Assembly (NCBI GenBank): GCA_017461605.1 | Contig: JAFTXN010000001.1 | Location: forward strand, 1-64,000 | DNA: 64,000 bases | Reading direction: 5' to 3' | Source: Bacteroidaceae bacterium | Lineage (GTDB): Bacteria; Bacteroidota; Bacteroidia; Bacteroidales; Bacteroidaceae | Part shown: one piece after another, positions 12,948-48,925 of the stretch | Layout of the letters: each line of letters begins with the position of its first letter | How positions within the stretch are numbered: position 1 is the first letter of the stretch | The notes under the pieces: generated by a model | Told to the model about the DNA's origin: nothing | What the model saw: the letters and a program-made list of their open reading frames with translations, nothing else | The model's database searches: none | Translations under genes and position numbers: made by a program

Positions 12948-15900
12948 CTAACGCAGCACTTTCTTGCCATTCACGATGTAGACTCCCTTGCCGGCCTGAC
13001 GGACGCGGCGTCCTTGGAGGTCGTAGACGGCGTCTGCTGCACCAATCTCTGTCATCACGTCGCGTATGCTGGTGGTGCCATCGGCATCGACGAATCGCAG
13101 GCGCAGTGCTGTGGCTGTGGTGGCAGGCACTTGGAGATAGGCCTTGTTGTTGTAGACCTTGAAGTCGGCTGCTTTTCTATAGAATGCTGCCAGGTCGTTT
13201 TTCACGGAGAGAACATAATCAACCGAACCATCCGTGGGGAGGGTTACGGCCGCATAGCTGTCGCTGCTGCTGTCATCGGCCTCGAAACCGACCAAAAGAT
13301 TGTCCTCTACGGCTGTGCCATAACTGATGGAAGGCATAAACGTATAGGTATCTGCTCCGCCGAGAAGCACAGCTCCGGTCTTGGCGGGAATGAAGCCGAT
13401 GAGTTGGTTCAGTGAAAGAGTGCCGATGTTTGTCTCAGCATCAATCACGGGAACCTCAACAGCCGCATAGGCTTTCACTCCTTCGGGAATCTGCATAGCC
13501 TCTGAAGCATAGAAAGTGCCGATGCCGTGTGAGGAGATGGTGCTGCTGACTGTGTAGAGACTGTACTTATTGGCAGTAAGGTCTTCCAATGTGTAAGGAA
13601 TATATACGATGCAATAACCACCAGGTACTTCTTCCATCAAGAAACCGATGCGACCGTCTGCCTGGAGAATCATCGTAGAGTAGCAAGCATCGGTGAAACT
13701 TACATGCTTACCAACTTGCCAACCTTCAGCAAACGTTGCAGGAGTGTACTTGTTTGTACCGTCAGTGTTATACTCCATTTCCTTGTAGTACACCTTAACA
13801 TTCGTACGACCAGGACCAGCAGGGATTGACTGCAACATAACATCGCAAATCTGACCATCGTCCTTACGGATTGCCTTTACCTTATAAATTTCGCCGTTCG
13901 TACCATTGCCACTACCATCATAAGCAGATGTACTCTTTACTGCAGAACCCCAACTACCTGTTGTGTATTTTTCTGCATCTGACTTACCTTCATTGTTGAA
14001 TGTAAAGATGTTGAACCAACGTCCACCAGAAACACGGCTACTGAGGATTACAGAACCATCGGGCAACTCTTCGCACTTGGGTTCGTCACCATTGGGAGCC
14101 GGGCGGTCTGCAATCGTACCGAGTACGTTCCATGTGCCACCGAAGTCGTCAGAGTAGATAACGCGGTTACCTCCATTGTTCGTCCATATTGCGCAGTAGA
14201 GACGATAGTATTCACCCTTCTTCACTACACGACTCTGACAAATCTTACCAGAACCAATAAACATTGAAGGAACTGTGGGAGTATTGCCATCAAGGAAGAG
14301 AGAGTACATAGCATCCGTTACTTCTTCGGGCTCTGTCCATTCCCATTGCTGAGTAGTTTCGTTAAAGGTAGCATATACGCGAGCAACACGGTTTACAGCT
14401 GCAGCATCGGGATCACCAATTTTGCTCGTATCCCAGCGTCCGTTGTGGCATACCGTGTGTCCTGCAACCATCATTGCAAGGAGTTTGTTGCTTTCGCGGT
14501 CGGCCACTACAGCTGCGTCACCATAACCATACTTCATATTGTTGGTTGCGATGCTTCCGTCGCCATTAGCAAGGAAGAACTCTTCACCCCAAGTTACACC
14601 ATTGTCGGTAGAGATACGACACTTGATGTCTACTTCACCATAACCGATATCAGCACCTGAAGGACGATTGTCAGCAATCGCAAAGATGTGTCCGTTGGCT
14701 GCAGTTGCGATGGCAGGAATGCGGTAGGGCTTTCCATTAGCGTCGGGAGAGTAGTAGAGTGTGCGTTCGTCGTTAGCGGTGTAAGAGGCAGTGAGCACGC
14801 CATCGTTGTTCTCACATCCGTTGTAAGTATAACCACGATAAGTCATTGAAGAAACTTCGTAGGTTGCACCTAATGGGATGTAGAGTTTCTGACCTTCTAC
14901 ACTGCCAAGGATGCGTGTTTGACCTGCAAGACCATCAATCGTTAAAGTCAATTCGGCTACGCGAGGACTGCTTTCCCAAACCTGATCCACTTCAACATTG
15001 AGGGTTATAGGATTGTCTACATCCATCTTTTCAACAACCCAGATAGAACCGCCGTCAGTAGCACCATAAAGCTTGATGTCCTGACCTGCTCCACCGTGCA
15101 TATTGATACTCTGGTCCTTATTAGCCTTTGGAGTGATGGCGTAACCATTATCCTTAACCACCAAGCAGAAGTCAGCATTAGTATCAGTTGTGTTCATGCT
15201 TGCTGCACTACCACCACCTGTACCTGCCAATACCATGTGGAGACCAGTACCTGCAACGCGGTTGTAAATCTTGAAACTTTCTTCAGTACCTACAAGATAC
15301 CAAATTTCGTTTTCACCGTAAGCAGTCACACCCGAGTTGACAGCCTTTCCTGTGTAGTTGTCATTGGCTTTGAGACGCAATGTGTATTCACCGTCTCTCA
15401 CGTTACGGATACGTACCGGCACAAGGTCGTTCTCAGCTGTAGAAGCAGAGAAGAAGGCGATATTGAAGTTCGCTGTAATCGTACGATTCGCTGTCAACGA
15501 TGCAATCTCTACAGTTTGACCCAATGCGTTACCTTCTTCAGTAAGGTTTATGAAACTGTAGCTTTCGGGACAGTTAATAGAGAGCGTAGGATTGCTTATG
15601 GTAATGCCATCAAAGATTGTCCATGTTGCGGGGAGCGCCTTTGTCTCACCGTTCCATGTTGCAGAAGCACCGACATATGCAGGACCTTCAACTTCAAGAC
15701 TACGAACCTCTACTTCCTCAACGATGAGGTTGTGTTGTACACATCCGTCGTTGCCACAGTGGTCCATGAAGTAGTTTTCACCGCTGCTGTTAGGATGGAG
15801 GTACGATGGAGCTTGAATCTTAATCCTACCATCTGTACCTACGGTGAAGGTCACGTTGCCACCTGTATCGTAGAGACCACGGCTATTACCTTCCTCCTTC

Positions 15901-18900
15901 AAATACTTACCCGTAGTGATAGACTTCAAACGGAGGTTTCCATCCACGTCCTCAACAAGGAAGATTGAACCTTCACCCTTGTCAGCAGTCATGGCAAGAC
16001 CATTCACTGAAGAGTTGGTGCTCTGCAAATACTTCAGACCAGCAGCACCGAAGTCATAACCAATACGGATGTAGTCGCCTGCTTCGGGAAGGATGTCAGA
16101 CACAACATTTATGGTGTATGTATTACCTGACAAGGTGCTATTACCTTGCACGAAGTATCCAGCAGGCACATTCTGTTGGAGAAGCATATCAGGTACGGCA
16201 AGCCCTGTGGGATAGCTTACTTCGGCAGAAGCAATCTTTTCTTCACCACACATATAATTAATAGTGTAGGTAGTCTCAGGCAAATTTACCTTGGTAAACA
16301 TTGCGCGGATAGAGGTGCCATCCACAGATTTGGCATCCCAATAGCTGAGATTAGGATAGCCGCCAGGCGTGTTGGTATGGATGTAAAGGGTGTTTCCGTT
16401 ATTGGTATAGTTCGTTTGTGACACAAACCATTTACCCTCATTACCTTCTCCTCCAACAGCTTCGATAGCAAGGTTTGCCGGAGTTGTTGCGCCCATATTC
16501 ACATTTCTACTTGCATCGGCAGGCATGTATACATTACCACCCAAATTCCATAGAGTGAATGTTCCGTTTTCGCTATCATTAACCAGTTTCCAGATGTACT
16601 GAGCCTGTTCCGTAGTTACCTCTGTGCTGAGGTCCACATCGGTAGCCACACGATACTTTCTGTCGAGTGAGCCATCATAGTGCACCCACCCTTTTCCTGA
16701 TGAACTCTCAGAGTACATGATGTAATAACCATCTACAGGTTTCGCGTTGGGGTCTATGACCTCAGTGAAGTCAATCACCACAGTCTGTCCTTGCGTGCAA
16801 GGAATAGTAGCGATGCCATTCTCAACGGTGACGGCCGTATTGACGCCGTCCACTGTGATGAGGGCAGTAGCGATGTCGCCACGGTTGCAGCTCACGCGCA
16901 GCTCTGTGCCGGCGTGGCTTACGATGGTAGCGGTCTGCGCCTCGCTGTTGGCCCATTCGATGTCCACCGTGAAGTTACCCACGGCCTTCAGTCCGGTGAT
17001 GCGTCCATTCTCCCAAACTGAGGGGAGCGCCGGCAGTATTTGAATCACGTCAGTGTGGCTCTGCATCAGCATTTCGGCAATACCGGCACATGCACCGAAG
17101 TTTCCATCAATCTGGAAAGGAGCGTGAGAGTCGTAGAGGTTGTAGTACACACCACCACCGCTTATACTGTGGTGACGCAATGCCAATTCCAGGATGTCGT
17201 GCGAGTGGTCGCCATCAAGAGCACGAGCCCAAAGGTTAATCTTCCAACCCATTGACCAACCCGTAGACGCATCACCACGGAGGAGCATTGAGTTGATGGC
17301 TGCGTTGAAGAGATCAGTACCTTCTGCAATCTGATTGAAGGGATAGAGACACATGAGGTGTGACATGTGACGGTGACCGTCTTGACCTGCAGTATAGTTG
17401 CTGGTCTTCCATTCGCGGAGGATGTTCGTTCCGCTTGCAATACGGTCGGTGCCCCATTGACCATCATAAACCTCGGTTGCCAAACCTTTATCAAGCTTTG
17501 AGAAGCGGTCACGCAATGTAGCGAGGTCATCAGCATTTACCTTTGACTCACCAAGGATTTCAACAGCCTTAAGCGTATTGTCAAAGAGTTCCCAAACGAG
17601 CTGCTGTGAGTGAGCTGTTGCGTTTTCTGCTCCAGGACCGTGCTCGGGAGAGTATTCGTCAGGACATTCGTAAGTGCCATCCTCTTCGTTTAGTTCAAGA
17701 CGATCCATCCAGAACATAGACGCACCCCACATTGCGGGGAAAGCCTTTTCCAAGAACGCTTGGTCAAGCGTGTAACGATAGTGTTGCCACAAGTGTGACA
17801 CGTACCAAGCATTATTGATTACGGCATTCTGCGCGAAGCTACCAAAACCACCGAAGATATTGTTTTCAGTTAAGAATGTCCATGCTTCGGGGCGCGTAGA
17901 TCCCTTCTTTTGTGCCAAAGCCTTCCATTCTGCACTATTCGCCATATTGATGATATAGTTAAGGAAAGGCATGTGCATTTCGCTGAGGTTGGTAGGTTCT
18001 GCAGGCCAGTAGTTCATCTGTACATTGATGTTGGCATGAATATCAGCGTTCCATGCCGGTTCAGAACTGTTGTTCCAAATACCTTGCAAGTTGCTCGGCA
18101 GATCCACGCCGCGCGACGAACCGATTTCAAGGTAGCGACCATAAGCGAAGTAGAGCTGTTCAAGCATCAACGCATAGTCCTCTGTACCCGTAGTGCGATT
18201 CTGATACTGGCGCACCAGGTCATCGGTAGGCATCGTATTGGCAGCACCTTCAAGCACGAAGTTACAACGATCGAAGAAGCTCTTATAGTCAGTCAAATGA
18301 GTGCTGTAGAGGGTGCTCCACGTCTTCTCGGCCGCATCGTTCACACGATTCTGCACGAGTGTAGAGAGATTGGCCGTGCCCGATACATATTCTGCATTAT
18401 ACGCATCAAAGTCGGTGGCACCTCCCAAGATGATAAGTACCTCATCAGCACCTGTCACGGTGATGCCATTCGCATCGGTGGTCATCGTTCCGCCCGTGGG
18501 CACCACTTTCGCCAAAGCGTCATAGGACACCGTCTCGAGCTTTCCTGCAAAATGAGCTGTACCTTCAGCATACGATGTGGTGGCACGAACGCCCGGTCTG
18601 CCGGATGCCATCGTCACCCTGATACTGATTTGTCCTGCTTGGTCGGCCGTCAATCGCATCGCCACCACCTGGTCGGGGTTGCTGGCAATGTATTCGCGTG
18701 TAAAGTTGATAGTGCCGTCCGTACTCTTATAGTGCACGCTGGCAGTAGCGTTCGAGAGGTCCAACTGGCGATAATAGTCCTTCACCGCCTTGTCCTCGCC
18801 AAACACACCACTGATATCGTCGATAAAGAGGCTGCCGAAGTTCTCGTAGTCGCCATATTCCGAACTATTGTCATTCTTCGTACCGCTCCAAAGTGTCTTT

Positions 18901-20534
18901 TCATTGAACTGCACTTCTTCGCGTGCTACGCCACCAAAGATGCTGGCACCAAACTGTCCGTTACCAATGGGGAGCGAATACTCCATCCACTGGTCGCTCA
19001 CATTCATGTTGCTTGCAGCATTGGTATACCACAGGGTCAAGGGGCTGGCCGGCGTATAGCCGCTGATGCCCTCCACGTCGAAGGTGGCAATGAGGTCTTC
19101 GCCGGGTACGTAGAGATACAGCGGATTGCCGTTGCTCCCCTTCGTCCAGAGGCCAATCGACATTCCGGCATTTGCACCTCCCCACTGGTTGAACGAATTG
19201 CCTGTGGAACCATTCCACACAATTTCGTAAGCACCGGCATAGGTAGCATTACTCGTCTCGACGATGCTGAAGCCCGAGGCATCCTCCGCATCCGACATAT
19301 ACAGCAGATTGCCCGTTTGTCCGTTGGTGGCCGTGCCACTCTTGATCGTTGCATAGCGTCCGTCCTTGCTTACCAACTGGAAGTTTTCTGCTGTACCTAC
19401 AAACTTCCACCACTGCGACGCCACATTGCGTATGGCCGCTGTCACAGCCTGACCGTCGGCCCCGTTCGAAGACAAATGGTTGCCCCCGTTGGCAAAGCGA
19501 ATCATGAACCAATCCGTGCTGCCATCCGTGAAGACAGGCGCCACATTGCTGAGCACCGTCGCGTTGAGATAGAACGGGTTGTTGGCATCGCCCGCCGTCC
19601 ATTCGCCGAGCTGCACACCTACTCCCGTACCGCCGTTTTGGTTCATGCACTTGCTGCTGCCCGAACGCTGCAGCTCCCAGGTGTCGGCCGCAGCACCGGC
19701 CACAAAGGTCAGTGTGGTAGCGGCAGACGCATCGTTGGTGGTCCGGAAGCGACTTGCCGTCTCGTCATAATAAACATAGTTGCCATTGCCACTCTTCATC
19801 TTGAAACCAAAATAGTCGCCGATGAACATCCAACACTCCTCATTGCTATCGGCTGCACCGACCGTCACCATGTTGTTGCCGCTGCCGGCATCGGTGAGGA
19901 AGTGTCCACCCGTCTTGAACTCCACGGAATACCAGCGCGGAGCATCCTCGGTGGAGAACGTCGTCACATCCGGCTGCTTGTATTCTGTAAATAAGAAAGC
20001 AGAACCGTTGTCGTTGGTGGCACTTGACGAATTCCAATATGTAAGTTTTTTTGGATCCCCTTGAGGATTCCAATAGAAATTGTTATCCGCCCCCGTATGT
20101 TTACGGACACACCAATAAGTCGTATTAGCATCAGACTTCTGAGAGGATACGAAATCAAAGGTTGATGTGTACCCATCAGACCCCATGGCAACAAACTGTG
20201 CATAGTTGTTGCTGTTGTTCATACACATAGGAGTCTCTGCACCTATCGCCTTGTTGTAGAAGGCAAAACCATTTTCGGCATCGCCAACAACGCACCAAAG
20301 TGCAGCATCATTTAAGCCCGAAGACGAGGGCATCTGAACATACCCCTCGCTGTCCAAATTGTCTCCTCTCAGATAATAACCGCTCTTGGTCTTAATCTGA
20401 TACCACGTGGTGCCCTCTGCCCACTGCCCATCGCTGGGTGCCGGCGACACCGTGGGCTGTGCCCAGCCCACACTGCACACCATGCCCATCAGCAGGCATA
20501 GCATGCACCTCAGTAACCTTGAATTACTCATCAT
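12948..20534 (-). CDS. Giant secreted GH95 alpha-L-fucosidase - GH33 sialidase fusion, T9SS cargo
   Basis: About 2,528 aa from the ATG at 20534 (a longer frame to 20705 has no plausible N-terminus). Layout: signal peptide (1-26, L-C-L-L-M-G-M-V-C-S-V-G-W-A-Q); three lectin-like repeats of the Y-Y-L-R/H-L-x-D type (about 30-480); GH95 alpha-L-fucosidase (about 490-1260) with L-P-I-G-N-G-Q-F-G-A, N-A-D-I-H-A-N-I-N-V-Q-M-N-Y-W-P near 830, a S-P-E-H-G-P segment near 963 and H-R-H-M-S-H-L; two more beta-rich linker/lectin regions; GH33 sialidase (about 1935-2320) with Y-R-I-P and Asp boxes S-T-D-N-G-V-T-W and S-D-D-F-G-G-T-W; a roughly 200-residue C-terminal module ending Y-D-L-Q-G-R-R-V ... G-V-Y-I-V-N-G-K-K-V-L-R, a T9SS-type sorting end. 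Predicted to remove fucose and sialic acid from host glycans at the cell surface. Confidence 0.88.
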   Translation of the reverse strand: MMSNSRLLRCMLCLLMGMVCSVGWAQPTVSPAPSDGQWAEGTTWYQIKTKSGYYLRGDNLDSEGYVQMPSSSGLNDAALWCVVGDAENGFAFYNKAIGAETPMCMNNSNNYAQFVAMGSDGYTSTFDFVSSQKSDANTTYWCVRKHTGADNNFYWNPQGDPKKLTYWNSSSATNDNGSAFLFTEYKQPDVTTFSTEDAPRWYSVEFKTGGHFLTDAGSGNNMVTVGAADSNEECWMFIGDYFGFKMKSGNGNYVYYDETASRFRTTNDASAATTLTFVAGAAADTWELQRSGSSKCMNQNGGTGVGVQLGEWTAGDANNPFYLNATVLSNVAPVFTDGSTDWFMIRFANGGNHLSSNGADGQAVTAAIRNVASQWWKFVGTAENFQLVSKDGRYATIKSGTATNGQTGNLLYMSDAEDASGFSIVETSNATYAGAYEIVWNGSTGNSFNQWGGANAGMSIGLWTKGSNGNPLYLYVPGEDLIATFDVEGISGYTPASPLTLWYTNAASNMNVSDQWMEYSLPIGNGQFGASIFGGVAREEVQFNEKTLWSGTKNDNSSEYGDYENFGSLFIDDISGVFGEDKAVKDYYRQLDLSNATASVHYKSTDGTINFTREYIASNPDQVVAMRLTADQAGQISIRVTMASGRPGVRATTSYAEGTAHFAGKLETVSYDALAKVVPTGGTMTTDANGITVTGADEVLIILGGATDFDAYNAEYVSGTANLSTLVQNRVNDAAEKTWSTLYSTHLTDYKSFFDRCNFVLEGAANTMPTDDLVRQYQNRTTGTEDYALMLEQLYFAYGRYLEIGSSRGVDLPSNLQGIWNNSSEPAWNADIHANINVQMNYWPAEPTNLSEMHMPFLNYIINMANSAEWKALAQKKGSTRPEAWTFLTENNIFGGFGSFAQNAVINNAWYVSHLWQHYRYTLDQAFLEKAFPAMWGASMFWMDRLELNEEDGTYECPDEYSPEHGPGAENATAHSQQLVWELFDNTLKAVEILGESKVNADDLATLRDRFSKLDKGLATEVYDGQWGTDRIASGTNILREWKTSNYTAGQDGHRHMSHLMCLYPFNQIAEGTDLFNAAINSMLLRGDASTGWSMGWKINLWARALDGDHSHDILELALRHHSISGGGVYYNLYDSHAPFQIDGNFGACAGIAEMLMQSHTDVIQILPALPSVWENGRITGLKAVGNFTVDIEWANSEAQTATIVSHAGTELRVSCNRGDIATALITVDGVNTAVTVENGIATIPCTQGQTVVIDFTEVIDPNAKPVDGYYIMYSESSSGKGWVHYDGSLDRKYRVATDVDLSTEVTTEQAQYIWKLVNDSENGTFTLWNLGGNVYMPADASRNVNMGATTPANLAIEAVGGEGNEGKWFVSQTNYTNNGNTLYIHTNTPGGYPNLSYWDAKSVDGTSIRAMFTKVNLPETTYTINYMCGEEKIASAEVSYPTGLAVPDMLLQQNVPAGYFVQGNSTLSGNTYTINVVSDILPEAGDYIRIGYDFGAAGLKYLQSTNSSVNGLAMTADKGEGSIFLVEDVDGNLRLKSITTGKYLKEEGNSRGLYDTGGNVTFTVGTDGRIKIQAPSYLHPNSSGENYFMDHCGNDGCVQHNLIVEEVEVRSLEVEGPAYVGASATWNGETKALPATWTIFDGITISNPTLSINCPESYSFINLTEEGNALGQTVEIASLTANRTITANFNIAFFSASTAENDLVPVRIRNVRDGEYTLRLKANDNYTGKAVNSGVTAYGENEIWYLVGTEESFKIYNRVAGTGLHMVLAGTGGGSAASMNTTDTNADFCLVVKDNGYAITPKANKDQSINMHGGAGQDIKLYGATDGGSIWVVEKMDVDNPITLNVEVDQVWESSPRVAELTLTIDGLAGQTRILGSVEGQKLYIPLGATYEVSSMTYRGYTYNGCENNDGVLTASYTANDERTLYYSPDANGKPYRIPAIATAANGHIFAIADNRPSGADIGYGEVDIKCRISTDNGVTWGEEFFLANGDGSIATNNMKYGYGDAAVVADRESNKLLAMMVAGHTVCHNGRWDTSKIGDPDAAAVNRVARVYATFNETTQQWEWTEPEEVTDAMYSLFLDGNTPTVPSMFIGSGKICQSRVVKKGEYYRLYCAIWTNNGGNRVIYSDDFGGTWNVLGTIADRPAPNGDEPKCEELPDGSVILSSRVSGGRWFNIFTFNNEGKSDAEKYTTGSWGSAVKSTSAYDGSGNGTNGEIYKVKAIRKDDGQICDVMLQSIPAGPGRTNVKVYYKEMEYNTDGTNKYTPATFAEGWQVGKHVSFTDACYSTMILQADGRIGFLMEEVPGGYCIVYIPYTLEDLTANKYSLYTVSSTISSHGIGTFYASEAMQIPEGVKAYAAVEVPVIDAETNIGTLSLNQLIGFIPAKTGAVLLGGADTYTFMPSISYGTAVEDNLLVGFEADDSSSDSYAAVTLPTDGSVDYVLSVKNDLAAFYRKAADFKVYNNKAYLQVPATTATALRLRFVDADGTTSIRDVMTEIGAADAVYDLQGRRVRQAGKGVYIVNGKKVLR

Positions 20535-20616
20535 GTTGTGTTTTGATATAAAAATTTGATTGTGTTTTTCTTCGGCAAACGGACGGACACGCGGACACCA
20601 CGCGCCAACGCCTGCG

Positions 20617-20647
20617 CAAATGTACACAAAAAAAGATTGAAACACAA
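20617..20647 (-). promoter_or_regulatory. Promoter of the fucosidase-sialidase gene
   Basis: Minus-strand TTG (20645-20647) and TACATTTG (20617-20624) separated by 20 bp, with a leader of about 75 nt to the ATG at 20534. The promoter lies inside the longer open frame, which further supports the 20534 start. Confidence 0.65.
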
Positions 20648-20799
20648 GCAAGAAAGCACAGACGGAGCAAATACAACGTCGTATACTCAGAGGTTTGTCG
20701 ACCAACCCCTTTTTTTCTCTCTATAAATCCTGTCTATGCCGGCATCGCGTCGCACAGCCTAAAAGCGTCACAGGCATCCGAGGAAAGTATCAAGGGCAA

Positions 20800-21377: not shown

Positions 21378-24300
21378 TTATCGCAACACCTTCTTTCCGT
21401 TAACGATGTACACACCCTTGCCGGCCTGACGGACGCGGCGTCCGGTGAGGTCGTAGATGCGCTCATCGCTGCTCTGCGTCATAATGCCGAAGATGCGGGT
21501 GGTGCCATCGGCATCGACAAAGCGCAGACGCAAGGCTTGCGCACCGGTTGACGGAACGTTGAGGTAGGCTTTGTGATTGTAGACCTTAAATCCGGCTGCC
21601 TTGCGATAGAACCCGGCTACGTCGTTCTTCACCGTGAGCACATAGTTGGTGGAGCCGTCGGTGGGCAGGGCCACTTCGGCATACTCGTCAGTGCCGGCAT
21701 ATCCGCGCAGCAGGTTGCCAAAGACCGTTGTACCCTCGTTGGCCGTCGGGACAAAGAGGTAATCGCCCGGCTTACCGCATATCACCACACCGGTCTCGGA
21801 GGGCACGATGCCATCGGCGATGGCATTCAGGGTGACGAAACCTTCGCCATTCTCCAGGGTGGGTATCTGCGTGGCGACATAGGCTGTCACTCCGTCGGGG
21901 ATGGTGGTGGGACGCTGGGCATAGAAGGTGCCGATTTCGTAAGCGCCGATGGTGCTTGTGATGGCGGCATCGGCGTCGGTGCCGCCTGTGACGGTGAAGT
22001 TCTTGCCATCCATGGGGGCGAGCGATGTGAGCGTATAGGCTGCTCCGCCCTCTTCCTCAATGCGGATGATGCCGCCATTCATCCGACGAACGGCAGTGGT
22101 GAAATCGACGTCCACCTGTCCCACATTGACATCAGGGAGCGAAACGGTGCACTGACCATCGCGAGCAACGACGCTCTCGGCAAGCACATAGGGGAAAGTC
22201 TTGCCATAGTCGGCAGACATCGAGATGCGCAAGCGGCTGTCGGCTGTGAAGTAGTTCTCGTTGACACCCCAGTTCACAGTGACGCTTTCTCCTGCCGCAT
22301 ACTCGGTCTTCTCGGGACTGAGCGTTGCGCTGAAATCTTCGCCCTCGACAATCTGCACTTGGCTCTCCCAGATGGCGTAAGTGCTGTAGAAGGGGTCGGC
22401 TTGCAGCGCTGCATAGCTCCAGTCGGTGGAGGGCACATCGTTGACCAGGATGCTGAGGTCGTAAGTGCCGGGCTCCATTTCGTGAACGGCGGTGCCGTCG
22501 ACGAGGTAGAAGTCGGCTTCGTAGTTGACATCGGCCGTATAGCGCGGCTGGTAGCGTATCACGTTGTCGGCTTGCGGTGCGAACGAGGCGAAGGGGGGCA
22601 TGAGGGCATTTTCGCCTTCCTCAATGTTGCCCACGGTGGTGCTGTTGCATCCGATGGCGGTGTACATCAACTTGTGGTTCTTGGTATCGGTGGCCTGCAC
22701 ATCGATGCTGAGACATGCTCCCTGGGGGATGCGGTAGATGGTCTGCATCTTGTCGGCATCGAATTGGGGGGCATTGTTGGCCACCTCTACATTGGCGTAG
22801 GAGGAAGTGCCCTTGGCTCGGTCGCGTATCGTCTTGATGGAGGGATAGGAGAAGTATTCGCCTCCGGTGTCCATGAGGCTTCCTTCGCCGGTCGTGGTGT
22901 GGGGAGCGCCAAACATGTGGCCGAGCTCGTGCACCACCACCCACTTGTCGGTCTTGGCATAGCCGCTGCCCTTGGTGCCGAGAGCATAGGCGCCGGCTGT
23001 GATGGAGAGTCCGGAATTCTCGGCGTCGAGGTCGCGATGCACGACCCACATACCCACATCGTAGGCGTCGGCTCCGATAGCTTCGTCGAGCAGCTCAGTT
23101 CCGAAGCTGGTGGCGTTGTAGATGCTTTGGTTGATGAGGTTTTCTTCCTTCATCACCAGGCGCTCGTCCACCACCACGTCGAAGCAGAAGCCGAGGGGCA
23201 CGAACATGCGGTTGGCGAAGTCTTCGCACTCTTGCCAGAAGGCCTTCACGCGGTCGTAGCTTTCGCCGAGGTCGTTCTCGTAGGCACTGAGCGTGACGGG
23301 AATGGCCAAGCGATAGAAGCGCAGCGTGCCGTCGCCGGGGAGGGCGTCGGGGCTCACAATCTCTTCGTCGTCACCCCCATCGTCAATCACTTCGGGAGTA
23401 CTATAGTTGTTATTGGTAATGGTCTCGATGCTGAGGGGCATGTACACCATGCTGTAACCCTTGGCATAGTTGTCGTCGTAGCAGGGGGCTTCCTCGAAGA
23501 AGAAGGCTATCTTGCCATCGTCCTGCAATGCCATGGCACTGTAGGCACTCAGCTGCGTGCTCACCTGGAGGCCTTGCGTCCAGTCGGCGGCTATCTGCGC
23601 CGAGGTGTAAGTAGCATCAGTTATTTCCTTATACCAAATGGTGACGTCGCGGCGGTCGTAAAGTCCGCTGCCGCCCTTGGGTTGCGACTGCAGGAGCAGC
23701 TTCACGGCATTGCCCTCGGCGTCCAGGGCGTCGATGCAATAGATTTCGCCATTGCAGGTGTTGCTTCCGCCGTTGCCGCAACCATTCACGTTGCTGTCCC
23801 ACGTGCCGGCGTTCGTAGCTTTATCGGTGTACGTGAATACATTAAACTGACGACCGCCACCGCGGCGCACGCTGAGCAGTATCTGTCCGCCGGGGAGGAT
23901 TTCCACCTTGGGCTCGTCGTTGGTAGTGACGTACGTCTGACTGCCGCCAAGGATGCTCCATGTCTTTCCTAAGTCGTCGGTGTAAATGGCATAGACTGCA
24001 TTCCCCACGCCTTCCTTCTTGATAAGCATGGCGCCATAGATGCGTGCCTTGCCGGTGCCGTTGTAATCTTCATCCACTGCCAACTTACCACTGCCGAAGA
24101 AGGCTGTGTAGCCGTTTTGGATAGTGGCATCATCGCCGATGAAGAGGGTTTCGGAGATGTCCTCCTTACTCCAGGTCTTGCCATTGTCTTCGCTGAACAA
24201 GCGCACGGTGCGGTTGTGCGCCGTGGCACTGCCGTTGGGGAACATCACATCACCGGCTGCAGCCATCACGAGCACCTTCTGACCCACCACGGCAATGGCT

Positions 24301-27300
24301 GCATCGCCATAGGCACAGTCGTCAGCGCCTCTGACGCCAGAACCCTCAGCAATGGTCTGCTTGTCGCTCCATGTCTTACCGTTGTCGTCACTCGTGCGGA
24401 TAACCAAATCAATACCGGGATTGGCTGTACCAAAGTTGTAGCGACCAATGTCGTCCAGGCTGTGGCGATAGTCGCTCACAGCGATGAGACGACCCGTTGA
24501 AGTCTTGCCGATGGCCGGAATGCGGTAGGAGAATTCGTCGTCGTCATAGAAGAGGGTAGCCTCGTCGGTAGCCACAAACTTGGCCACGAGCGGATTTGCT
24601 TCGCTGGTTGTCATGTCGTCGGAGGGCGTGAAGCTCTTGCCCAGGTTCTCCTCACCCAGGAAGAAGCCTTGGAACTCGAAGCCACGATAGGCACGGGTGA
24701 ACTCGATGACGGTGGAGGGGGTGTTGAGATAGCCGATGGTGGTCACAGCAGCGTCGCGATTGAACTTGACTGTGTTGGTGCCAAAGTCGCTGCTGGCTTT
24801 CAGGGTGCCAAAGTGGGTGTTGGGGTTGCTGTTCTCCAAGCCCTCGACCTCAGCCTTCACGTAGAGCTGCACTTCCTCGGCTTCCGACGCATCCACCGCC
24901 TCGGCTATGCTCGTCAGCTCAGCGGCTGTGAGCGTTCCGACGAGAGTCACCTTGTGGTTGCTGCCTTCATCATCCAATTTGCTCCAACCGCCGGTCCAGG
25001 TAATGAGGCCTTCGCCGTGGTTTGGGCTGTGATTGACCACACCGGCGTTGTCGGTCGAGAACATAATTGGGTAGTCGGCAGAACTACTCTGCTTGAAAGT
25101 GAGCAATTTGTTGCTGGGAGCATCTACAAAAGGCACAGAGGTATTGTTGGCGCTCTGCACTCCCATGTACTTTCCCTTGCCGATGTTGTAGAGGTAGTAG
25201 TTGCCCTTGGCCGACTTATACACCGCCCATTGGAAATAAGGGTTGTCGGCCGACGCTTCGGGCGTCACGTTGGTACGGGCCGTAGAGATGACGTTGTTGC
25301 TACCGGCTGTTGCGCCCATCCATCCACGCTTGGTCACGAAGGTGTAGATGCCACCGTTCGTAAACTCTTCCGCGCTCTTGATTTCCACAGGCTCAAAGGT
25401 TTGGTCGTAGAGGTCGGCCGGGATGAAGACGTAGTCCGAGCACCAACTGCCGTTGTTCACTTTCACGCTGTTGCGATTGAACGACGAACCATCGGCTGCC
25501 GTAACCATCCATTTGCCATTGTTGTCCGTACCGATGCGCATTACACCGACACTACCTCCGTGCACAGCGTAGCTTGCCTGAATGTCCAATTGCACCGGGG
25601 TGGTGTTGACGGTCAAGCCATTGCCACTGTTGCCATAACCCATATACTTGGTGTTGTCACCTACGTTCTGGAACGTATAGTATTCTGTATCCGTAACCTT
25701 GGAGGCAATCCACTTGTGCATATCGTTGTTCCTCTGCAGCTCTGTCGTTGTGGCCAACGAACCATTGTTATTATAAAGGTAACGAGCTACGTAGCTACCA
25801 CTGCTCTGCAGAGCATCGGCATAAACAAACGACTCCACACCCACCACGGGGCTTCCCTCTGAGAGTCCCTTGTTCCAAGCATATACCTCGTTCAGCGCAG
25901 CAGCTGTTTCTGCGGTTGCACCGGCACGATAAGCACGCACGGCATCAAAAGTCTCGTTCACCTTGGTGTATTCGGAGGGAAGAATGTAGAACTCGGAGAA
26001 AGTGTAGAACACAGAACCGCCATTAGTGGAATTTACCGTGAAGCGATAGTGCTGATAAGCTGTGGCACTGGTGATTTCTTCTGAGAAGTAATCGAGCACA
26101 GCTGCATCGGTGGGCAGTCCGCTGCTGATGACTTTCACTTCACTCCACGTATTCTTGTCGTTAGAGCCTTCGATGGTGATGTTTGTGGGGCGATTCGCGT
26201 TGTTCTGGCTGCGCTTCTTGAAGTAGAAGCGAAAGCTTTTCACCGCCTTGCCGAGGTCGGCTTGCAGGTAGTGAGCACCCGTTCCGATAGTAGCGTCATA
26301 TCCGCTATGGAAGAAAGTAGTGTATTGTCCATCAATGAGATTGGCGTAGGCATTGCCACTCTCCTGAGAGGTAGATGCCGGATAGTTGCACACGAGCTGA
26401 CCATTGCCTTCGATACCTGTTCCGGCATCTTGTATGAATCCGAGATGGCGCTGCAATCCATAGATGTTCATTCCGCTGTTGGCTGCCGCAGCCTCGTTGA
26501 GGGCAATATCTTCCTCAGTGACGGGATACTCAATCTCTGCCACTTTCTCGGCACTGAGTGCTTCGCCGAAAAATTGCACAGAACGCACCTTTCCACCGAA
26601 CAAATCGTAAGCCGCATTGCTGCTCACCACACCACCGCCGACATAGAGCTTGGCATTGGCGTTGGTAGCAAAGTTGCTGAACGATTGCAATTCATATTCA
26701 GCCACGGGATAGTTGGCCGAACTCTTCAATGCACCGTCCACATAGATGGAGAGCTTCTTATTCGTGCAGTCAATCACATAAACCACCTTATAATTGGTAT
26801 TCGCCGCAAAAGCAAAGTCACTATACGTAAATCTGTCGCCAACTCTCGAAGAAGGCATATAGACCGGATTGCTGCCATAAAGTCCGTAAGCGATATAGGG
26901 CGAATTTGCCTTTGTCGCTCCGGTGATAGCCTGAGTGGGGTCAGCAGCACAGACCAAGGCCTGTCGGCCACTCATCGATGCCGGCATCGTAACATCCAGC
27001 GCAATGGTGATATTCTCTTGCGCAAAGACCTTGGCAGCCGATGCGTCGTCGATGACGTAGGGATAAGTCTGAGTGCTCAACTTCTCCACTTTCACGATGG
27101 GCTGTGGAGGAATTTGGTCGGTAACGTCGATAAGGCGGTATTCGCAACCGTCGTCAGTCGTGTTGGTGCCACCTCCCCAGTTAAGGAGGTGGAGGTTACC
27201 ATCTTTCTGTTGGTTGAATTGAGCAGTACCACTGACAACGATTACATTGCCTGTATTCTCTGCCTTCTTGATAGACCAACCAGCAGCGGGTTGCGCAACT

Positions 27301-29804
27301 ACCGTTTTAAGCGCTGTATTGTTGTTGCTTGCAGGTGAAATATACGTATCATCTGCTACATTGATAATATCATACGAACCATCACCACGACTAACAAACT
27401 TCCAAATAGAAGCCTTTGTAGTTGCTTCCGTTGGACCAGTGATAGCAGCGTCAACACCATTACCTGTAGCATAGCGATTTGCACGGAGCGGCGTGTACAT
27501 GCGATAATAATTGCCGCTCACGGGGCGGTTCATGTTGTCATTGGTTAGCGAGGCAACGAAAGCGGTCCACGCTGTTTCCAATGCTGTGACTTGTACAGCA
27601 CGTTCTTCTGCGGTCATTGTAGTGCTGTAAGTAGCTTCAATTTCTGCCACCTTGGCGTCCAATTCCGCAGCAGCTGTTTCGGGCCAAAGCCCAACGGTTG
27701 TGCCGATGAGGTTGCCACGGTCGCGCTTGATTTCACTCACCTTCGCTGCCACGACTTCCGTAGCCTCGTCCATACACTGGTTGGGCGAGTAGATGAGTCC
27801 TTCCACTGCATTCTTGCCTTCGGTGTCGGTGAATACGCAGGTGAACATCCACTTCTTCAGTCGGTAGCCCTTGTTGAAGTAAGGCAACTTGAGGAACACT
27901 TTGTTCCAGCCTTGCTTGAGGGTCACCTTGATAGGCTCACGACCGGGGAAATTCTCGTTGAGCAGGTCCACCTCCTTACTGCTGATGCTCACACCCGTAT
28001 TGGTCCAAGTGGGAGCGGCGATTTCCTCGCCGTTGATCCATATCTTGGAGCCGAAGTGGTCCCACTTGCCTGCAGGAGCAGCAGCATCCTGCTCGGAGCG
28101 GCTATAGTTCTGGAATTCGATTTGTGCACCCACTGTTTGCTCTTCAGGAGAATAAACGTAGGTCCAGGCGTATGCCGTGTGGTCAAACTGCGGGTTCTTG
28201 TAGTAGGCATTGATAATGCTGTTGCCCCAAGTGTGGCTCAGATAGATACCCGCACCGGTTGCCATGCCCGTATAGTAGTTTTCACCATCGTGCGTATAAA
28301 CTTCGGGGAGCAAATCTGTCGAGGCCGTCGTACCTTCTGCTTCCGGACCAAAGGCTGCCGTTTCGCTACCGCCATTGGGGAAGGCATCGGTGATGCGCCA
28401 GCGCACGTTTGTTTGCTTCACATAGGGGATAGGCTCGTTCTGCAGAGAGTTGGCCTTGTGGAAGAGGAAGCGCGTTTCCCAACTCTTGAACGCTTCAAAT
28501 TCTTCACCCGAGTTGGGCAGCATCACACCGCCACCACCATTGGTGCCACCATTGGTGCAATTGTCGATGTATTGCTTGCCGCCACCCATCCAGGCACGTT
28601 CGGCCGTGGCAATGACGTTTGCCCACACGTTGTTTTGCGCCATGATATCGGTCTGCGTAGGCAGCTTGCGGTCGTTCCAGCAGCCTGAAATGGATCCTGC
28701 CACCTCAGCATCGCCCCGCTCCTTGTAGTAGATGGTGCTCTTATAGATACCCACCAAGTCGGCGAAGACGTCAAAGTGGTTAGTATAGTTGTAGCGACTA
28801 TCGATGTTGGCCCTGCCCGCAGCGAAGTAGCCACGCGTGCCCCACATCTGCGTCATCGAAGCCTTCAGATTGTCCTGACTGATGCCGTTGATAGGGTTCC
28901 ATATTTCGGCCTTCTTACCCTTGCTCTCCACATAGGCAATCATCTCGTTGAGATAGTCGGCCGTGGTCGACACCTCGTCGCCACCGATATGAATGTAGGG
29001 CGCATCTGCAAAGACGTCGACCACCTCATCGAGCACAGCCTTAAGCACTTCTTTTCCCTCATCGCTCTGCATTTCACAGCCCATGGCACGCTCAAAAGCC
29101 TCGCTGTGGCCCGGCATATCGATTTCAGGAATCACAATCACACCATGTTTCTTGGCCACCGCCATCAATCGGCGGCAGTCGTCCTGCGTGTAGTAACTAC
29201 CGGCGAAGCGCGTCATGTGTTGGCTCTCGGTGAGTGCGGGATAAGCCTTCACCTCGAAGCGCCAAGCTTGATTCTCCGTCAGGTGCCAATGGAAAGTGTT
29301 AATCTTGAATCGTGAGAAAAGTTCGATCTGACTAATCAGCTCATCGATGGTGATAAACGAGCGACCTACGTCGTGCATATAGCCACGAAGCTTGAATGCA
29401 GGCCAGTCCGTCAGCGTAAGCGCCTCAAGCGAGGGAGTGCCATCCCAGCCCTCAGCCAGTTGCGTCAGTGTCTGCGCCGCACGGATGATGCCCGTGGGCG
29501 TAATTGCTGTGATGTCGATTTCGGAGGAAGTAATCTCCAGCGTGTAAGCCTCGTTCTCATAGCCATGCAGGCTGTAGTCGTAAGCACCAGCTATGCTCTG
29601 CACGAGGCTGACATTGACAGGCTTTCCACCACTTGCCACAAGGGCACAACCATGATCAGTGAAAAACTCCTCAAGCAGCGCACACTGCTGGGCGCCACCC
29701 GAATAATTGATGGTGATGTTACCGCTCAAGCTGAATGCAGCCGCATTCTCCGTGACGGCAATCTGCTGCGGCAACGGCAACAGATGTATCACCTTGGCCT
29801 GCAT
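21378..29804 (-). CDS. Giant GH20 hexosaminidase - LamG - discoidin - GH33 sialidase - metzincin protease fusion, T9SS cargo
   Basis: About 2,808 aa. Domains: GH20 beta-N-acetylhexosaminidase (about 1-455) with catalytic pair in H-I-G-G-D-E-V near 275; lectin-like region (about 760-900); LamG/ConA-like fold (about 915-1090); F5/8 discoidin, CBM32-like (about 1115-1270); lectin-like repeats; GH33 sialidase (about 1755-2140) with Y-R-I-P and several S-x-D-x-G-K-T-W Asp boxes; a metalloprotease domain (about 2150-2400) with the metzincin zinc motif H-E-L-G-H-M-F-G-A-P-H near 2290 and a Met-turn-like S-L-M-D-T-G-G; Ig-like segment; shared C-terminal module ending G-V-Y-I-V-N-G-K-K-V-L-R. The N-terminus is odd: the body frame has no signal peptide from the ATG at 29804, while an ATG at 29863 in another frame precedes a good hydrophobic stretch (possible frameshift). 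Predicted to dismantle sialylated mucin-type glycoproteins. Confidence 0.88.
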   Translation of the reverse strand: MQAKVIHLLPLPQQIAVTENAAAFSLSGNITINYSGGAQQCALLEEFFTDHGCALVASGGKPVNVSLVQSIAGAYDYSLHGYENEAYTLEITSSEIDITAITPTGIIRAAQTLTQLAEGWDGTPSLEALTLTDWPAFKLRGYMHDVGRSFITIDELISQIELFSRFKINTFHWHLTENQAWRFEVKAYPALTESQHMTRFAGSYYTQDDCRRLMAVAKKHGVIVIPEIDMPGHSEAFERAMGCEMQSDEGKEVLKAVLDEVVDVFADAPYIHIGGDEVSTTADYLNEMIAYVESKGKKAEIWNPINGISQDNLKASMTQMWGTRGYFAAGRANIDSRYNYTNHFDVFADLVGIYKSTIYYKERGDAEVAGSISGCWNDRKLPTQTDIMAQNNVWANVIATAERAWMGGGKQYIDNCTNGGTNGGGGVMLPNSGEEFEAFKSWETRFLFHKANSLQNEPIPYVKQTNVRWRITDAFPNGGSETAAFGPEAEGTTASTDLLPEVYTHDGENYYTGMATGAGIYLSHTWGNSIINAYYKNPQFDHTAYAWTYVYSPEEQTVGAQIEFQNYSRSEQDAAAPAGKWDHFGSKIWINGEEIAAPTWTNTGVSISSKEVDLLNENFPGREPIKVTLKQGWNKVFLKLPYFNKGYRLKKWMFTCVFTDTEGKNAVEGLIYSPNQCMDEATEVVAAKVSEIKRDRGNLIGTTVGLWPETAAAELDAKVAEIEATYSTTMTAEERAVQVTALETAWTAFVASLTNDNMNRPVSGNYYRMYTPLRANRYATGNGVDAAITGPTEATTKASIWKFVSRGDGSYDIINVADDTYISPASNNNTALKTVVAQPAAGWSIKKAENTGNVIVVSGTAQFNQQKDGNLHLLNWGGGTNTTDDGCEYRLIDVTDQIPPQPIVKVEKLSTQTYPYVIDDASAAKVFAQENITIALDVTMPASMSGRQALVCAADPTQAITGATKANSPYIAYGLYGSNPVYMPSSRVGDRFTYSDFAFAANTNYKVVYVIDCTNKKLSIYVDGALKSSANYPVAEYELQSFSNFATNANAKLYVGGGVVSSNAAYDLFGGKVRSVQFFGEALSAEKVAEIEYPVTEEDIALNEAAAANSGMNIYGLQRHLGFIQDAGTGIEGNGQLVCNYPASTSQESGNAYANLIDGQYTTFFHSGYDATIGTGAHYLQADLGKAVKSFRFYFKKRSQNNANRPTNITIEGSNDKNTWSEVKVISSGLPTDAAVLDYFSEEITSATAYQHYRFTVNSTNGGSVFYTFSEFYILPSEYTKVNETFDAVRAYRAGATAETAAALNEVYAWNKGLSEGSPVVGVESFVYADALQSSGSYVARYLYNNNGSLATTTELQRNNDMHKWIASKVTDTEYYTFQNVGDNTKYMGYGNSGNGLTVNTTPVQLDIQASYAVHGGSVGVMRIGTDNNGKWMVTAADGSSFNRNSVKVNNGSWCSDYVFIPADLYDQTFEPVEIKSAEEFTNGGIYTFVTKRGWMGATAGSNNVISTARTNVTPEASADNPYFQWAVYKSAKGNYYLYNIGKGKYMGVQSANNTSVPFVDAPSNKLLTFKQSSSADYPIMFSTDNAGVVNHSPNHGEGLITWTGGWSKLDDEGSNHKVTLVGTLTAAELTSIAEAVDASEAEEVQLYVKAEVEGLENSNPNTHFGTLKASSDFGTNTVKFNRDAAVTTIGYLNTPSTVIEFTRAYRGFEFQGFFLGEENLGKSFTPSDDMTTSEANPLVAKFVATDEATLFYDDDEFSYRIPAIGKTSTGRLIAVSDYRHSLDDIGRYNFGTANPGIDLVIRTSDDNGKTWSDKQTIAEGSGVRGADDCAYGDAAIAVVGQKVLVMAAAGDVMFPNGSATAHNRTVRLFSEDNGKTWSKEDISETLFIGDDATIQNGYTAFFGSGKLAVDEDYNGTGKARIYGAMLIKKEGVGNAVYAIYTDDLGKTWSILGGSQTYVTTNDEPKVEILPGGQILLSVRRGGGRQFNVFTYTDKATNAGTWDSNVNGCGNGGSNTCNGEIYCIDALDAEGNAVKLLLQSQPKGGSGLYDRRDVTIWYKEITDATYTSAQIAADWTQGLQVSTQLSAYSAMALQDDGKIAFFFEEAPCYDDNYAKGYSMVYMPLSIETITNNNYSTPEVIDDGGDDEEIVSPDALPGDGTLRFYRLAIPVTLSAYENDLGESYDRVKAFWQECEDFANRMFVPLGFCFDVVVDERLVMKEENLINQSIYNATSFGTELLDEAIGADAYDVGMWVVHRDLDAENSGLSITAGAYALGTKGSGYAKTDKWVVVHELGHMFGAPHTTTGEGSLMDTGGEYFSYPSIKTIRDRAKGTSSYANVEVANNAPQFDADKMQTIYRIPQGACLSIDVQATDTKNHKLMYTAIGCNSTTVGNIEEGENALMPPFASFAPQADNVIRYQPRYTADVNYEADFYLVDGTAVHEMEPGTYDLSILVNDVPSTDWSYAALQADPFYSTYAIWESQVQIVEGEDFSATLSPEKTEYAAGESVTVNWGVNENYFTADSRLRISMSADYGKTFPYVLAESVVARDGQCTVSLPDVNVGQVDVDFTTAVRRMNGGIIRIEEEGGAAYTLTSLAPMDGKNFTVTGGTDADAAITSTIGAYEIGTFYAQRPTTIPDGVTAYVATQIPTLENGEGFVTLNAIADGIVPSETGVVICGKPGDYLFVPTANEGTTVFGNLLRGYAGTDEYAEVALPTDGSTNYVLTVKNDVAGFYRKAAGFKVYNHKAYLNVPSTGAQALRLRFVDADGTTRIFGIMTQSSDERIYDLTGRRVRQAGKGVYIVNGKKVLR

Positions 29805-45064: not shown

Positions 45065-45286
45065 ATGTACTGGACACTGGAACTTGCTTCTAAACTCGAA
45101 GATGCACCCTGGCCTGCTTCCAAAGACGAACTCATCGATTACGCCATGCGCTCAGGCGCTCCCATGGAAGTGGTGGAAAATCTGCAGGAACTGGAAGACG
45201 AAGGCGAAATCTACGAAACCATAGAAGATGTTTGGCCCGACTACCCCACGAAAGAGGACTTCCTCTTCAATGAAGACGAATACTAA
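45065..45286 (+). CDS. DUF2795 family small acidic protein
   Basis: Protein of 73 aa, strongly acidic, with the DUF2795 pattern W-P-A-S-K-D-E-L-I-D-Y-A-x-R-S-G-A-P-x-x-V-x-x-N-L-Q-E-L-E-D-E-G-E-I-Y-E ending F-x-F-N-E-D-E-Y. Function unknown; likely a small cytoplasmic three-helix protein. Its last codons overlap the start of porP (45270) by 17 bp in a different frame, so it is translationally coupled to the T9SS operon and may have a housekeeping or regulatory link to it. Confidence 0.85.
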   Translation: MYWTLELASKLEDAPWPASKDELIDYAMRSGAPMEVVENLQELEDEGEIYETIEDVWPDYPTKEDFLFNEDEY

Positions 45287-46244
45287 GAACGAACTTCTGC
45301 GAAATACCCGACTGCATGCCATGCTCATAGCCCTATGTGCGTGGTGCAGTGGGGTTTTTGTTTATGCCCAACAGGAACCTGCTTTCGCACACTATTGGGA
45401 GATGGAGCCGCAGTTCAATCCCGCAGCAGCCGGACGCTCACCGCAGCTCTCCATCAACGCAGCCTATCAGTCGCACGCCACCGGCTACGAAGACGCCGGC
45501 GGAACCATGTATGCCGGTGCCGATATGGCCTTTGCCATTGGCAAAACCCGACACGGTGTGGGCGCACTCTTTCAGAACGACGAGATAGGCCTCTTCTCAC
45601 ACAAACGTGTATCGGTGCAGTATGCCTACCACCTCAAGCTGTGGGGCGGCACACTCAGCATCGGAGCACAGGCAGATATGCTCAGCGAAAGCATCGAAGG
45701 TTCCAAAGCCGACTTGGCCGATGGCAACGACCCGGCTTTTCCGAGCAGCGACATAAGCGGCTCGAAGTTTGACGCTTCGGCCGGACTCTATTACACACGC
45801 GGTCCATGGCGGGTCGGACTCTCCGCCTTGCACCTCACAGCTCCCACCATCCTGCTGGGAGAAACCAACGAACTTGAGACAAAACCCTTATATTATTTTA
45901 CAGCAGGATACAATATAAGGACAAGAACTCCGTTACTTACTATAGCACCCTCCGTGCTGATGCGATACGACGGCACCGATTTCAGAGCCGACATCACCGG
46001 ACGCCTGATTTACGCCCGTGAGAAAAAACGCATCTACGGAGGAGTGGGTTACAGCCCCCTGCACTCCGTGACCCTCTTCGTGGGAGGCACATTCCACGGA
46101 ATAGACATCAGCTATTCCTACGAAGCCAACACCGAAGGCATCGGCATCGGCGCCGGAAATCACGAAGTAACCTTGGGCTACCGGCTCGACCTCGACTTAG
46201 GCAAAAAAGGCAAGAACCGACATCAGAGCGTGCGCTTCCTTTAA
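45270..46244 (+). CDS. porP: PorP/SprF family T9SS outer-membrane protein
   Basis: About 324 aa from the ATG at 45270, which overlaps the DUF2795 gene. Signal peptide around 17-33 (A-M-L-I-A-L-C-A-W-C-S-G-V-F-V-Y-A-Q), then the family opening Q-x-P-x-F-A-H-Y-W-E-M-E-P-Q-F-N-P-A-A-A-G and repeating beta strands of a 14-strand-type barrel. The last strand is E-V-T-L-G-Y-R-L-D-L-D-L. PorP/SprF proteins sit in the outer membrane and link the T9SS ring and substrates. Directly upstream of gldK in the classic porPKLMN order. Confidence 0.92.
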   Translation: MKTNTKNELLRNTRLHAMLIALCAWCSGVFVYAQQEPAFAHYWEMEPQFNPAAAGRSPQLSINAAYQSHATGYEDAGGTMYAGADMAFAIGKTRHGVGALFQNDEIGLFSHKRVSVQYAYHLKLWGGTLSIGAQADMLSESIEGSKADLADGNDPAFPSSDISGSKFDASAGLYYTRGPWRVGLSALHLTAPTILLGETNELETKPLYYFTAGYNIRTRTPLLTIAPSVLMRYDGTDFRADITGRLIYAREKKRIYGGVGYSPLHSVTLFVGGTFHGIDISYSYEANTEGIGIGAGNHEVTLGYRLDLDLGKKGKNRHQSVRFL

Positions 46245-46319
46245 GCCCGAAAGCGCAAAAAAATGCACACGAGGCCACCGAAGCCTTACCATCCGAACAC
46301 ACAATATTATATATATCGT

Positions 46320-47822: not shown

Positions 47823-47902
47823 CACTTAGTATTTCACACCATAGCAAGCGAAATATGCCACACGCGACTACACATTTCGCTTTCGCATAAAAAAACATAC
47901 AC

Positions 47903-48853
47903 ATGGCATCAAAAATAAACATCGTTGTACGCCTGCAACACTGGATGGACAGTGTGCCCGGCCAAACCTTTCTCAACTATGCCTACAGTTGGGGCGCAGC
48001 CATCGTAATCCTTGGCGCACTCTTCAAGCTCACCCACCTGCAAGGCGGCGACCTGATGCTGTTCATCGGCATGGGTACCGAAGTTATTGTGTTCTTCCTC
48101 TCGGCATTCGACCGTCCCTTCGACAAGAACGAAATAGGCAAGGAACTTCCTGCCGACTATCAGACGGACGAAGAGATTGCCGCCAGCATGGGAGAATATG
48201 ACGACGAGGAAGACGAAGAAGACGAGGAAAGCCTTGACAACACCGACGACGCTGTTCAGCCAACCTTCACCAATGCTCCTGCAACCGGTGGCACGGTGGT
48301 AACCGGCGTACAGGGTGGTGGCGGCACCGTGATCATCGGTGGCACAGGCGGAGGCGGTGCAGTAGCTGCCACAGCAGATGCTCCTGCCACAAATGCCGGT
48401 GTCTCCACAGGCATCGCAGGTATCAGCGGACTGGAGTTCGGACCGCAGGACACCGAGGCCGAAAAGCTCGCTGCCATCATCCGTCTGGCCAACGACGAAC
48501 TGTTGCGCCGCGCACAGACTGTGCTCTCGCCCGAAATGGAAGCGGCCACACAGACCTACATCGAAAAACTGCAAACACTCACCGAGACGCTGGCCAAGGT
48601 GGACGAGCAGAGCGCCCGACTCACACGCGACAGCGAGGAGATGGAGAACCTCAACCGTACACTCACCGGTATCAATCGCATCTACGAGCTACAGCTCAAG
48701 GGAGTCAGTTCGCAGGTGGGCACCATCGACCAGATCAACGAGCAAACGCGTCGCTTAGCTGCGCAAATCGAGGAGTTGAATGGTGTCTACGGACGCATGA
48801 TCAAGGCGCTGACCGTAAACATGAAAAATGCCGGCGCAGCCATTTCCGAATAA
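47903..48853 (+). CDS. gldL: T9SS motor subunit GldL/PorL
   Basis: Inner-membrane proton-powered motor component that pairs with GldM. Protein of 316 aa. Two N-terminal transmembrane helices (about 22-45 and 50-68) with the family stretch L-N-Y-A-Y-S-W-G-A-A-I-V-I-L-G-A-L-F-K-L and a buried Glu in M-G-T-E-V-I-V-F-F. Then an acidic segment, a Gly/Thr/Val-rich linker (about 125-170, G-G-T-V-V-T-G and G-G-G-G repeats) and a C-terminal coiled coil (about 190-310). The glycine-rich linker is longer and more repetitive than I would expect. Eighty bases after gldK, same operon. Confidence 0.94.
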   Translation: MASKINIVVRLQHWMDSVPGQTFLNYAYSWGAAIVILGALFKLTHLQGGDLMLFIGMGTEVIVFFLSAFDRPFDKNEIGKELPADYQTDEEIAASMGEYDDEEDEEDEESLDNTDDAVQPTFTNAPATGGTVVTGVQGGGGTVIIGGTGGGGAVAATADAPATNAGVSTGIAGISGLEFGPQDTEAEKLAAIIRLANDELLRRAQTVLSPEMEAATQTYIEKLQTLTETLAKVDEQSARLTRDSEEMENLNRTLTGINRIYELQLKGVSSQVGTIDQINEQTRRLAAQIEELNGVYGRMIKALTVNMKNAGAAISE

Positions 48854-48925
48854 TCTTCTGTCACAATCACACTCCCGAAGCCGCCACGACGGACGGCTTC
48901 TCGAAAAAATCAACAACCCACTCGC

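Follow-up and report, generated by a model that had tools for sequence, protein, structure and literature searches.

We identified a single open reading frame in a Bacteroidaceae bacterium that joins a GH20 hexosaminidase, a GH33 sialidase and an adamalysin-like metzincin protease in one predicted polypeptide of 2808 amino acids. It starts with an ATG and occupies positions 21378 to 29804 on the minus strand of the 64,000-nucleotide stretch of DNA analyzed here (referred to as the window), exactly the coordinates and frame given in a preliminary description of this DNA, which had also proposed the three catalytic modules. The sequence and its relatives bear out all three modules, and the protease additionally has a confident fold model. 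We consider it probable, judging from sequence, that the product is a trifunctional glycoprotein-degrading enzyme of a gut member of the Bacteroidales, most likely exported by the type IX secretion system (T9SS) to the cell surface or the medium. Support for this comes from the single frame, three intact active-site signatures, a predicted metzincin fold, recurrence in four assemblies, dN/dS values well below 1 and T9SS genes. The features of the fused gene are as follows, with residues numbered on its product.

21378..29804, minus strand: whole fused gene, in the order GH20, F5/8, GH33, metzincin, C-terminal region
29403..29786, minus strand: GH20b domain, residues 7-134 (Pfam PF02838, 4.5e-12)
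28545..29396, minus strand: GH20 catalytic domain, residues 137-420 (Pfam PF00728, 4.7e-38 over residues 137-290)
27705..28547, minus strand: conserved region after GH20, residues 420-700 (87-89% identity to L041, L042, L046 and G003)
26445..27017, minus strand: LamG-like region, residues 930-1120 (counterpart in locus L129 of genome G003, Laminin_G_3, 9.4e-11)
26022..26378, minus strand: F5/8 type C (discoidin-like) domain, residues 1143-1261 (Pfam F5_F8_type_C, 3.7e-10)
25125..25487, minus strand: ricin-B-like stretch, about residues 1440-1560 (RicinB_lectin_2, best stretch 1499-1555, 4.5e-6 for the whole protein)
23415..24572, minus strand: GH33 sialidase domain, about residues 1745-2130 (NCBIfam NF052328, 2.6e-66; sialidase part alone against a solved exo-alpha-sialidase, 1.4e-53)
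22785..23333, minus strand: adamalysin-like metzincin domain, residues 2158-2340 (Pfam Reprolysin_4 and predicted fold)
22899..22931, minus strand: zinc motif HELGHMFGAPH, residues 2292-2302 (motif search and alignment)
22869..22880, minus strand: Met-turn SLMD, residues 2309-2312 (motif search and alignment)
22005..22784, minus strand: post-protease region, residues 2341-2600 (accompanies the protease in most relatives)
21381..21455, minus strand: C-terminal tail, YDLTGRRV...KGVYIVNGKKVLR (recurs in the bacterium's own genome)

Domain architecture and catalytic residues

Pfam models matching the fused protein were those for GH20b, GH20, F5/8 type C, BNR repeats and Reprolysin-like peptidase domains. 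The Glyco_hydro_20 match covers positions 1 to 183 of 348, about half of the profile. The first 450 residues match solved beta-hexosaminidases (best, 8.2e-38), and a second stretch, with a weak score, places the W-x-D and AERAW region (AERAW at residue 401) on the solved structure 4pys. The HxGGDE signature appears as HIGGDE at residue 272 and contains the pair D276-E277, kept in all five aligned proteins (the window's, L041, L042, L046 and G003); the catalytic roles of the residues numbered here and below are assigned as is usual for the GH20, GH33 and protease families. The predicted structure of the GH20 part (pLDDT, 33.2) was unusable and was discarded, leaving the barrel without structural support, which counts against the trifunctional reading. 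A lacto-N-biosidase-like GH20, an idea taken from the W-x-D at residues 376-378, was dropped, since the solved beta-N-acetylhexosaminidase 4pys has W-x-D too.

For the sialidase, NF052328 matched residues 1706-2135 with 224.5 bits, below its cut-off of 900, and BNR_2 reached 9.2e-7 with 28.9 bits, below its cut-off of 31.4. The YRIP motif lies at residue 1760 and S-x-D-x-G-x-T-W boxes (Asp boxes) at 1805 and 1871. Alignment to the solved structure 10qf placed the RIP arginine (R1761), the acid/base aspartate (D1785), the glutamate (E1964), two more arginines (R1980 and R2051) and the tyrosine (Y2088), all of which are kept in five of the five aligned proteins.

The protease matches Reprolysin_4 at 6e-14 (52.6 bits against a cut-off of 22) and has H2292, E2293, H2296, H2302 and M2311. 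In an alignment of 33 protease rows, chosen from the 75 GTDB loci described below, the H, E, H, G and H columns of the HExxHxxGxxH motif, third histidine included, and the S and M columns of the S-x-M Met-turn are invariant in every row. The stretch from the third histidine to the Met-turn is shorter here than in some free-standing bacterial relatives. Structure prediction gave a confident M12 adamalysin-like fold. This predicted fold, the zinc motif and the Met-turn are features in common with M12B-type adamalysins and ADAMs; the 50 solved fold matches listed, however, are venom, ADAM and ADAMTS enzymes with only 13-18% identity to the window's protease. When the stretch was compared with solved proteins by sequence, no protease fell below an E value of 0.001; the best was ADAM17 at 0.0081, outranked by recA rows, no stretch of which passes by itself. 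The case for a protease therefore rests on the Pfam match and the predicted fold, which also rule out a chance motif. Both point to the M12 half of the "M12/M43-like" label first given to this segment. The M60 mucinase model PF13402 is absent from the Pfam matches of the fused protein at an E value of ≤0.001, and membership of its protease in that family was rejected on this basis.

All motifs on which the preliminary description relied (HIGGDE, YRIP, the Asp boxes, HELGHMFGAPH and SLMD) are present, and profile searches recovered Glyco_hydro_20, the sialidase model (below cut-off) and Reprolysin_4, with the active-site residues intact. Of the binding modules that it placed between the enzymes, the discoidin-like one was recovered by Pfam; the LamG-like stretch of the window has no Pfam match at 0.001, and its G003 counterpart matches Laminin_G_3.

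Relatives and history of the fusion

An artificial join during assembly had been considered as a source of the fusion. We found the window's GH20-GH33-metzincin order in one frame in L041 (2647 amino acids), L042 (2833) and L046 (2850), from three assemblies of buffalo and cattle gut, with the catalytic residues of all three modules kept in alignment. The order thus occurs in four assemblies, which rules out a chimera. Against L041 and L042, dN/dS (Nei-Gojobori) for GH20, GH33, the protease and the region after it was 0.10-0.11, 0.04-0.05, 0.11-0.13 and 0.10-0.16, respectively, values readable only as "well below 1" given that synonymous changes approach saturation (0.64-0.73 of sites in these comparisons; several regions are saturated against L046). 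Among 72,556 plasmid records, 318 match parts of the fused protein and none covers 80% of it; in the five best, the matched part is GH20.

Of 101 genomes, with the window's own among them, 19 had a protease match at an E value of ≤0.001. In GTDB species genomes, a pattern-based scan, of which the best 80 of 81 relative-encoding stretches were kept, yielded 75 loci, in which 87 frames carry the protease at ≤1e-6 (genomes G019 and G017 appear to be the contigs of L042 and L046 and were counted once). The protease begins beyond residue 1,400 in five frames (L041, L042, L045, L046 and L073) and between residues 15 and 268 in the remaining 82, some of which are cut by contig ends (L100 and L102 at the start). 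In L073, a GH95 domain precedes the protease. In L045 the protease follows an unannotated N-terminal domain that is common to L073 (74% identity over 1,445 columns). This domain gave weak Pfam matches below cut-off and none in NCBIfam, and solved structures matched a side stretch and not the core; we take its DDGW and FKFD patterns to suggest a TIM-barrel glycosidase.

L045:786-3416 and L073:3548-6187: large domain shared by the two loci (pairwise comparison)

Free-standing relatives of the protease occur, for example, in Capnocytophaga and Riemerella. L043 and L044 (Prevotellamassilia timonensis) also encode it free-standing, with a signal-peptide-like start directly before it and a match beginning at residue 25, leaving little room for a prodomain of the kind that confers latency on M12B reprolysins. 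Both fall into one clade with the window, L041, L042, L045, L046 and L073 (100/99 in the tree of the 33 protease rows). In L047, L049, L052 and L068, the gene immediately after a free-standing protease gene is a separate one that shows a GH20-like match of 29-31% identity.

The GH20-GH33-protease rows do not form one clade in the 33-row tree, where well-supported branches force two changes, and a single clade of these rows appeared in 0% of 200 bootstrap trees. With a 14-row set, a single clade was not rejected (AU test, P = 0.163; P = 0.235 for all six fused rows as a group). The history could be a single fusion followed by loss and exchange of partners, or a number of independent fusions. 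L129 of genome G003 encodes a GH20-GH33 chain that keeps the GH20 and GH33 residues and has no protease; no protease match was found elsewhere in this genome, which is 87% complete, suggesting that the protease is dispensable there. In a nine-row GH20 tree, G003 lies beside L046 (98/98), which makes loss of its protease more likely than ancestral absence and leaves no support for G003 as the state before protease gain.

These relatives also bear on whether the modules are functionally coupled at all. They might be stitched together simply because secreted enzymes of the genus tend to be very large, with protease and glycosidases acting on separate substrates. This would fit the varied partners of the protease (GH20-GH33, GH95 and the unannotated domain), its free state in two members of its clade (L043 and L044), its absence from G003 and the GH20 frames of the genus, many of which are long and have several domains. 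However, every identifiable N-terminal partner is a glycan-degrading enzyme, and GH20 and GH33 share one chain in 5 of 13 further GH20 stretches (L129, L130, L131, L133 and L134), a set picked for long frames from the 46 of 101 genomes that have a GH20 match at 1e-60 and not a random sample. We regard an uncoupled protein as unlikely.

N terminus, C-terminal tail and export

An ATG upstream of the fused gene (29861-29863) opens a signal-peptide-like stretch in a frame that differs from that of the gene (29789-29914 region, minus strand). As assembled, the gene thus starts inside its signal peptide, which is out of register in the window copy; this could reflect either a sequencing error of the draft assembly or a real frameshift. 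By eye, L041, L042 and L046 have signal-peptide-like N termini in frame.

The C terminus had been read as a T9SS-type end. No curated model matches it: the last 120 residues, compared with Pfam and NCBIfam up to E = 10, matched no sorting domain, with HMMER filters dropping most matches above 0.1. In favor of that reading, the tail recurs in the bacterium's own genome, with matches at 24 places at an E value of ≤0.1 and 17 at ≤0.001 (own copy included), and T9SS genes are present.

45228..50479, plus strand: T9SS genes
45228-46244, plus strand: PorP/SprF
46263-47822, plus strand: FGE-domain protein, presumably GldK-like from its place between PorP and GldM
48926-50479, plus strand: GldM
47903-48853 and 50518-51576, plus strand: open reading frames where we would expect GldL and GldN

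The genome also encodes the PorU sortase (900.5 bits against a cut-off of 420, which none of 14 control genomes passed) and, with PorU, PorP and GldM, has the T9SS machinery. A 482-amino-acid frame at 30357-31805 (minus strand), with no Pfam match at 0.001, has a loosely similar tail. Frames of 48-56 amino acids lie directly after large genes with such a tail, at 30158-30328 and 21173-21319 of the window and at L027:17088-17255 (all minus strand); they start with MTKKTYRSPQ, MNKKKPYIVP and MKKAYIIPTA and are perhaps a recurring small peptide.

Within the fused chain, the protease follows the glycosidases, with a short acidic linker separating it from GH33, and precedes the C-terminal tail. This placement would suit a protease that cleaves the chain to which it belongs, or further surface proteins, and so releases the glycosidases after export, but its free-standing relatives carry nothing comparable ahead of the protease, and we consider this role very improbable.

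Genomic setting

The source genome is 81% complete, in 10 contigs, and has one match to the protease of the fused protein. It encodes further large enzymes.

12948..20705, minus strand: GH95 fucosidase and GH33 sialidase in one frame, 2585 amino acids (Pfam, NCBIfam)
L144:1369-9309, contig C7 of the same genome, minus strand: M60-type peptidase frame, 2647 amino acids (F5/8 in three stretches; ricin-like stretches)
L146:2550-6407, contig C2 of the same genome, plus strand: further sialidase-like frame, 1286 amino acids (similar C-terminal region)

The fucosidase-sialidase gene immediately follows the fused gene, on the same strand; its product is itself a multi-enzyme chain and is 77% identical to the fused protein over its last 52 residues. 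In L041 and on the L042 contig (G019), the fused gene has a sialidase gene upstream of it, that of G019 encoding 1,791 amino acids with no GH95 match. At 875-2176 (minus strand), a tyrosine integrase with an arm-binding domain perhaps marks a mobile element at the edge of the window.

The bacterium presumably comes from the gut. Given that its protease falls outside the M60 mucinase family and has the free-standing relatives named above, the fused protein could serve a general digestion of sialoglycoproteins, in which nutrients are released from a wide range of host glycoproteins and mucin is not preferred. The adjoining fucosidase-sialidase gene, the M60-type peptidase in the genome and the source samples of all five fused relatives, each from rectum or cecum, speak against this, although none is proof, and we hold such a broad role to be rather unlikely.

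Proposed function and comparison with known enzymes

For the trifunctional enzyme, we infer active sites that cooperate: the sialidase would take off terminal sialic acid and the GH20 terminal beta-HexNAc, the F5/8 and other lectin-like modules would hold the glycoprotein, and the adamalysin-like protease would cut the polypeptide where its glycans are trimmed. Mucin would be the likeliest substrate, and the mucin-dismantling machine of the preliminary description is plausible. Its "bared mucin backbone" goes too far, because enzymes of families GH20 and GH33 are exo-acting and remove only terminal HexNAc and sialic acid, so that core glycans remain. Points that speak against the trifunctional reading, besides the GH20 barrel, are the half-covered GH20 profile, the out-of-register signal peptide of the window copy, a C-terminal tail that fits no curated T9SS model, a protease outside the M60 mucinases and the protease-free chain of G003.

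SiaBb3 of Bifidobacterium bifidum likewise has a sialidase and a beta-N-acetylgalactosaminidase in one polypeptide, where GH33 and GH123 act one after the other on the Sda cap that mucin O-glycans carry; it differs in having GH123 instead of GH20 and in belonging to another phylum, and the accessible part of that report mentions no protease (PMC12856340). Ordered action of GH33 and GH20 in the fused protein is a testable analogy, no more. Extending it, GH33 and GH20 might strip a putative Sda-type cap (GalNAc beta1-4[Neu5Ac alpha2-3]Gal) and so let the adamalysin-like protease of the same molecule cut mucin, a sequentially gated mucinase that we think improbable. To our knowledge, adamalysin-like proteases are not known as mucinases. 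M60-like mucinases (PF13402) are comparable as extracellular zinc peptidases with glycan-binding modules that are thought to act on mucin, but they belong to another peptidase family and have no glycosidase in the same chain, as far as the accessible text goes (PMC3267712).

The joining of GH20 to a peptidase has a precedent in Limousia pullorum ET540, a mucin-using gut bacterium in which one dockerin-bearing GH20 protein also contains a peptidase domain; in the available sections of that paper, this protein has no sialidase, its peptidase family is unnamed, and it is tied to a predicted cohesin-dockerin assembly and not to the T9SS (PMC12997984). For Pseudoprevotella muciniphila, GH20 and GH33 genes are listed, and the words "peptidase" and "protease" are absent from the accessible text (PMC8136628). 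In the literature searched, mostly at the level of titles and abstracts and with few subscription papers, we found no protein described as uniting GH20, GH33 and a metzincin. The preliminary description likewise knew this exact architecture from no described enzyme; GH20 with a peptidase is already in print for Limousia (PMC12997984).

If the three sites cooperate, glycan removal from host glycoproteins and their proteolysis would be combined in a single exported protein, whereas these tasks are commonly attributed to distinct enzymes or, for Limousia, to a predicted cohesin-dockerin complex. An adamalysin-like mucinase, if true, would be an unexpected peptidase type for mucin. The protease clade, with members both free and behind varied N-terminal enzymes, offers a natural set with which to test whether joining speeds mucin breakdown.
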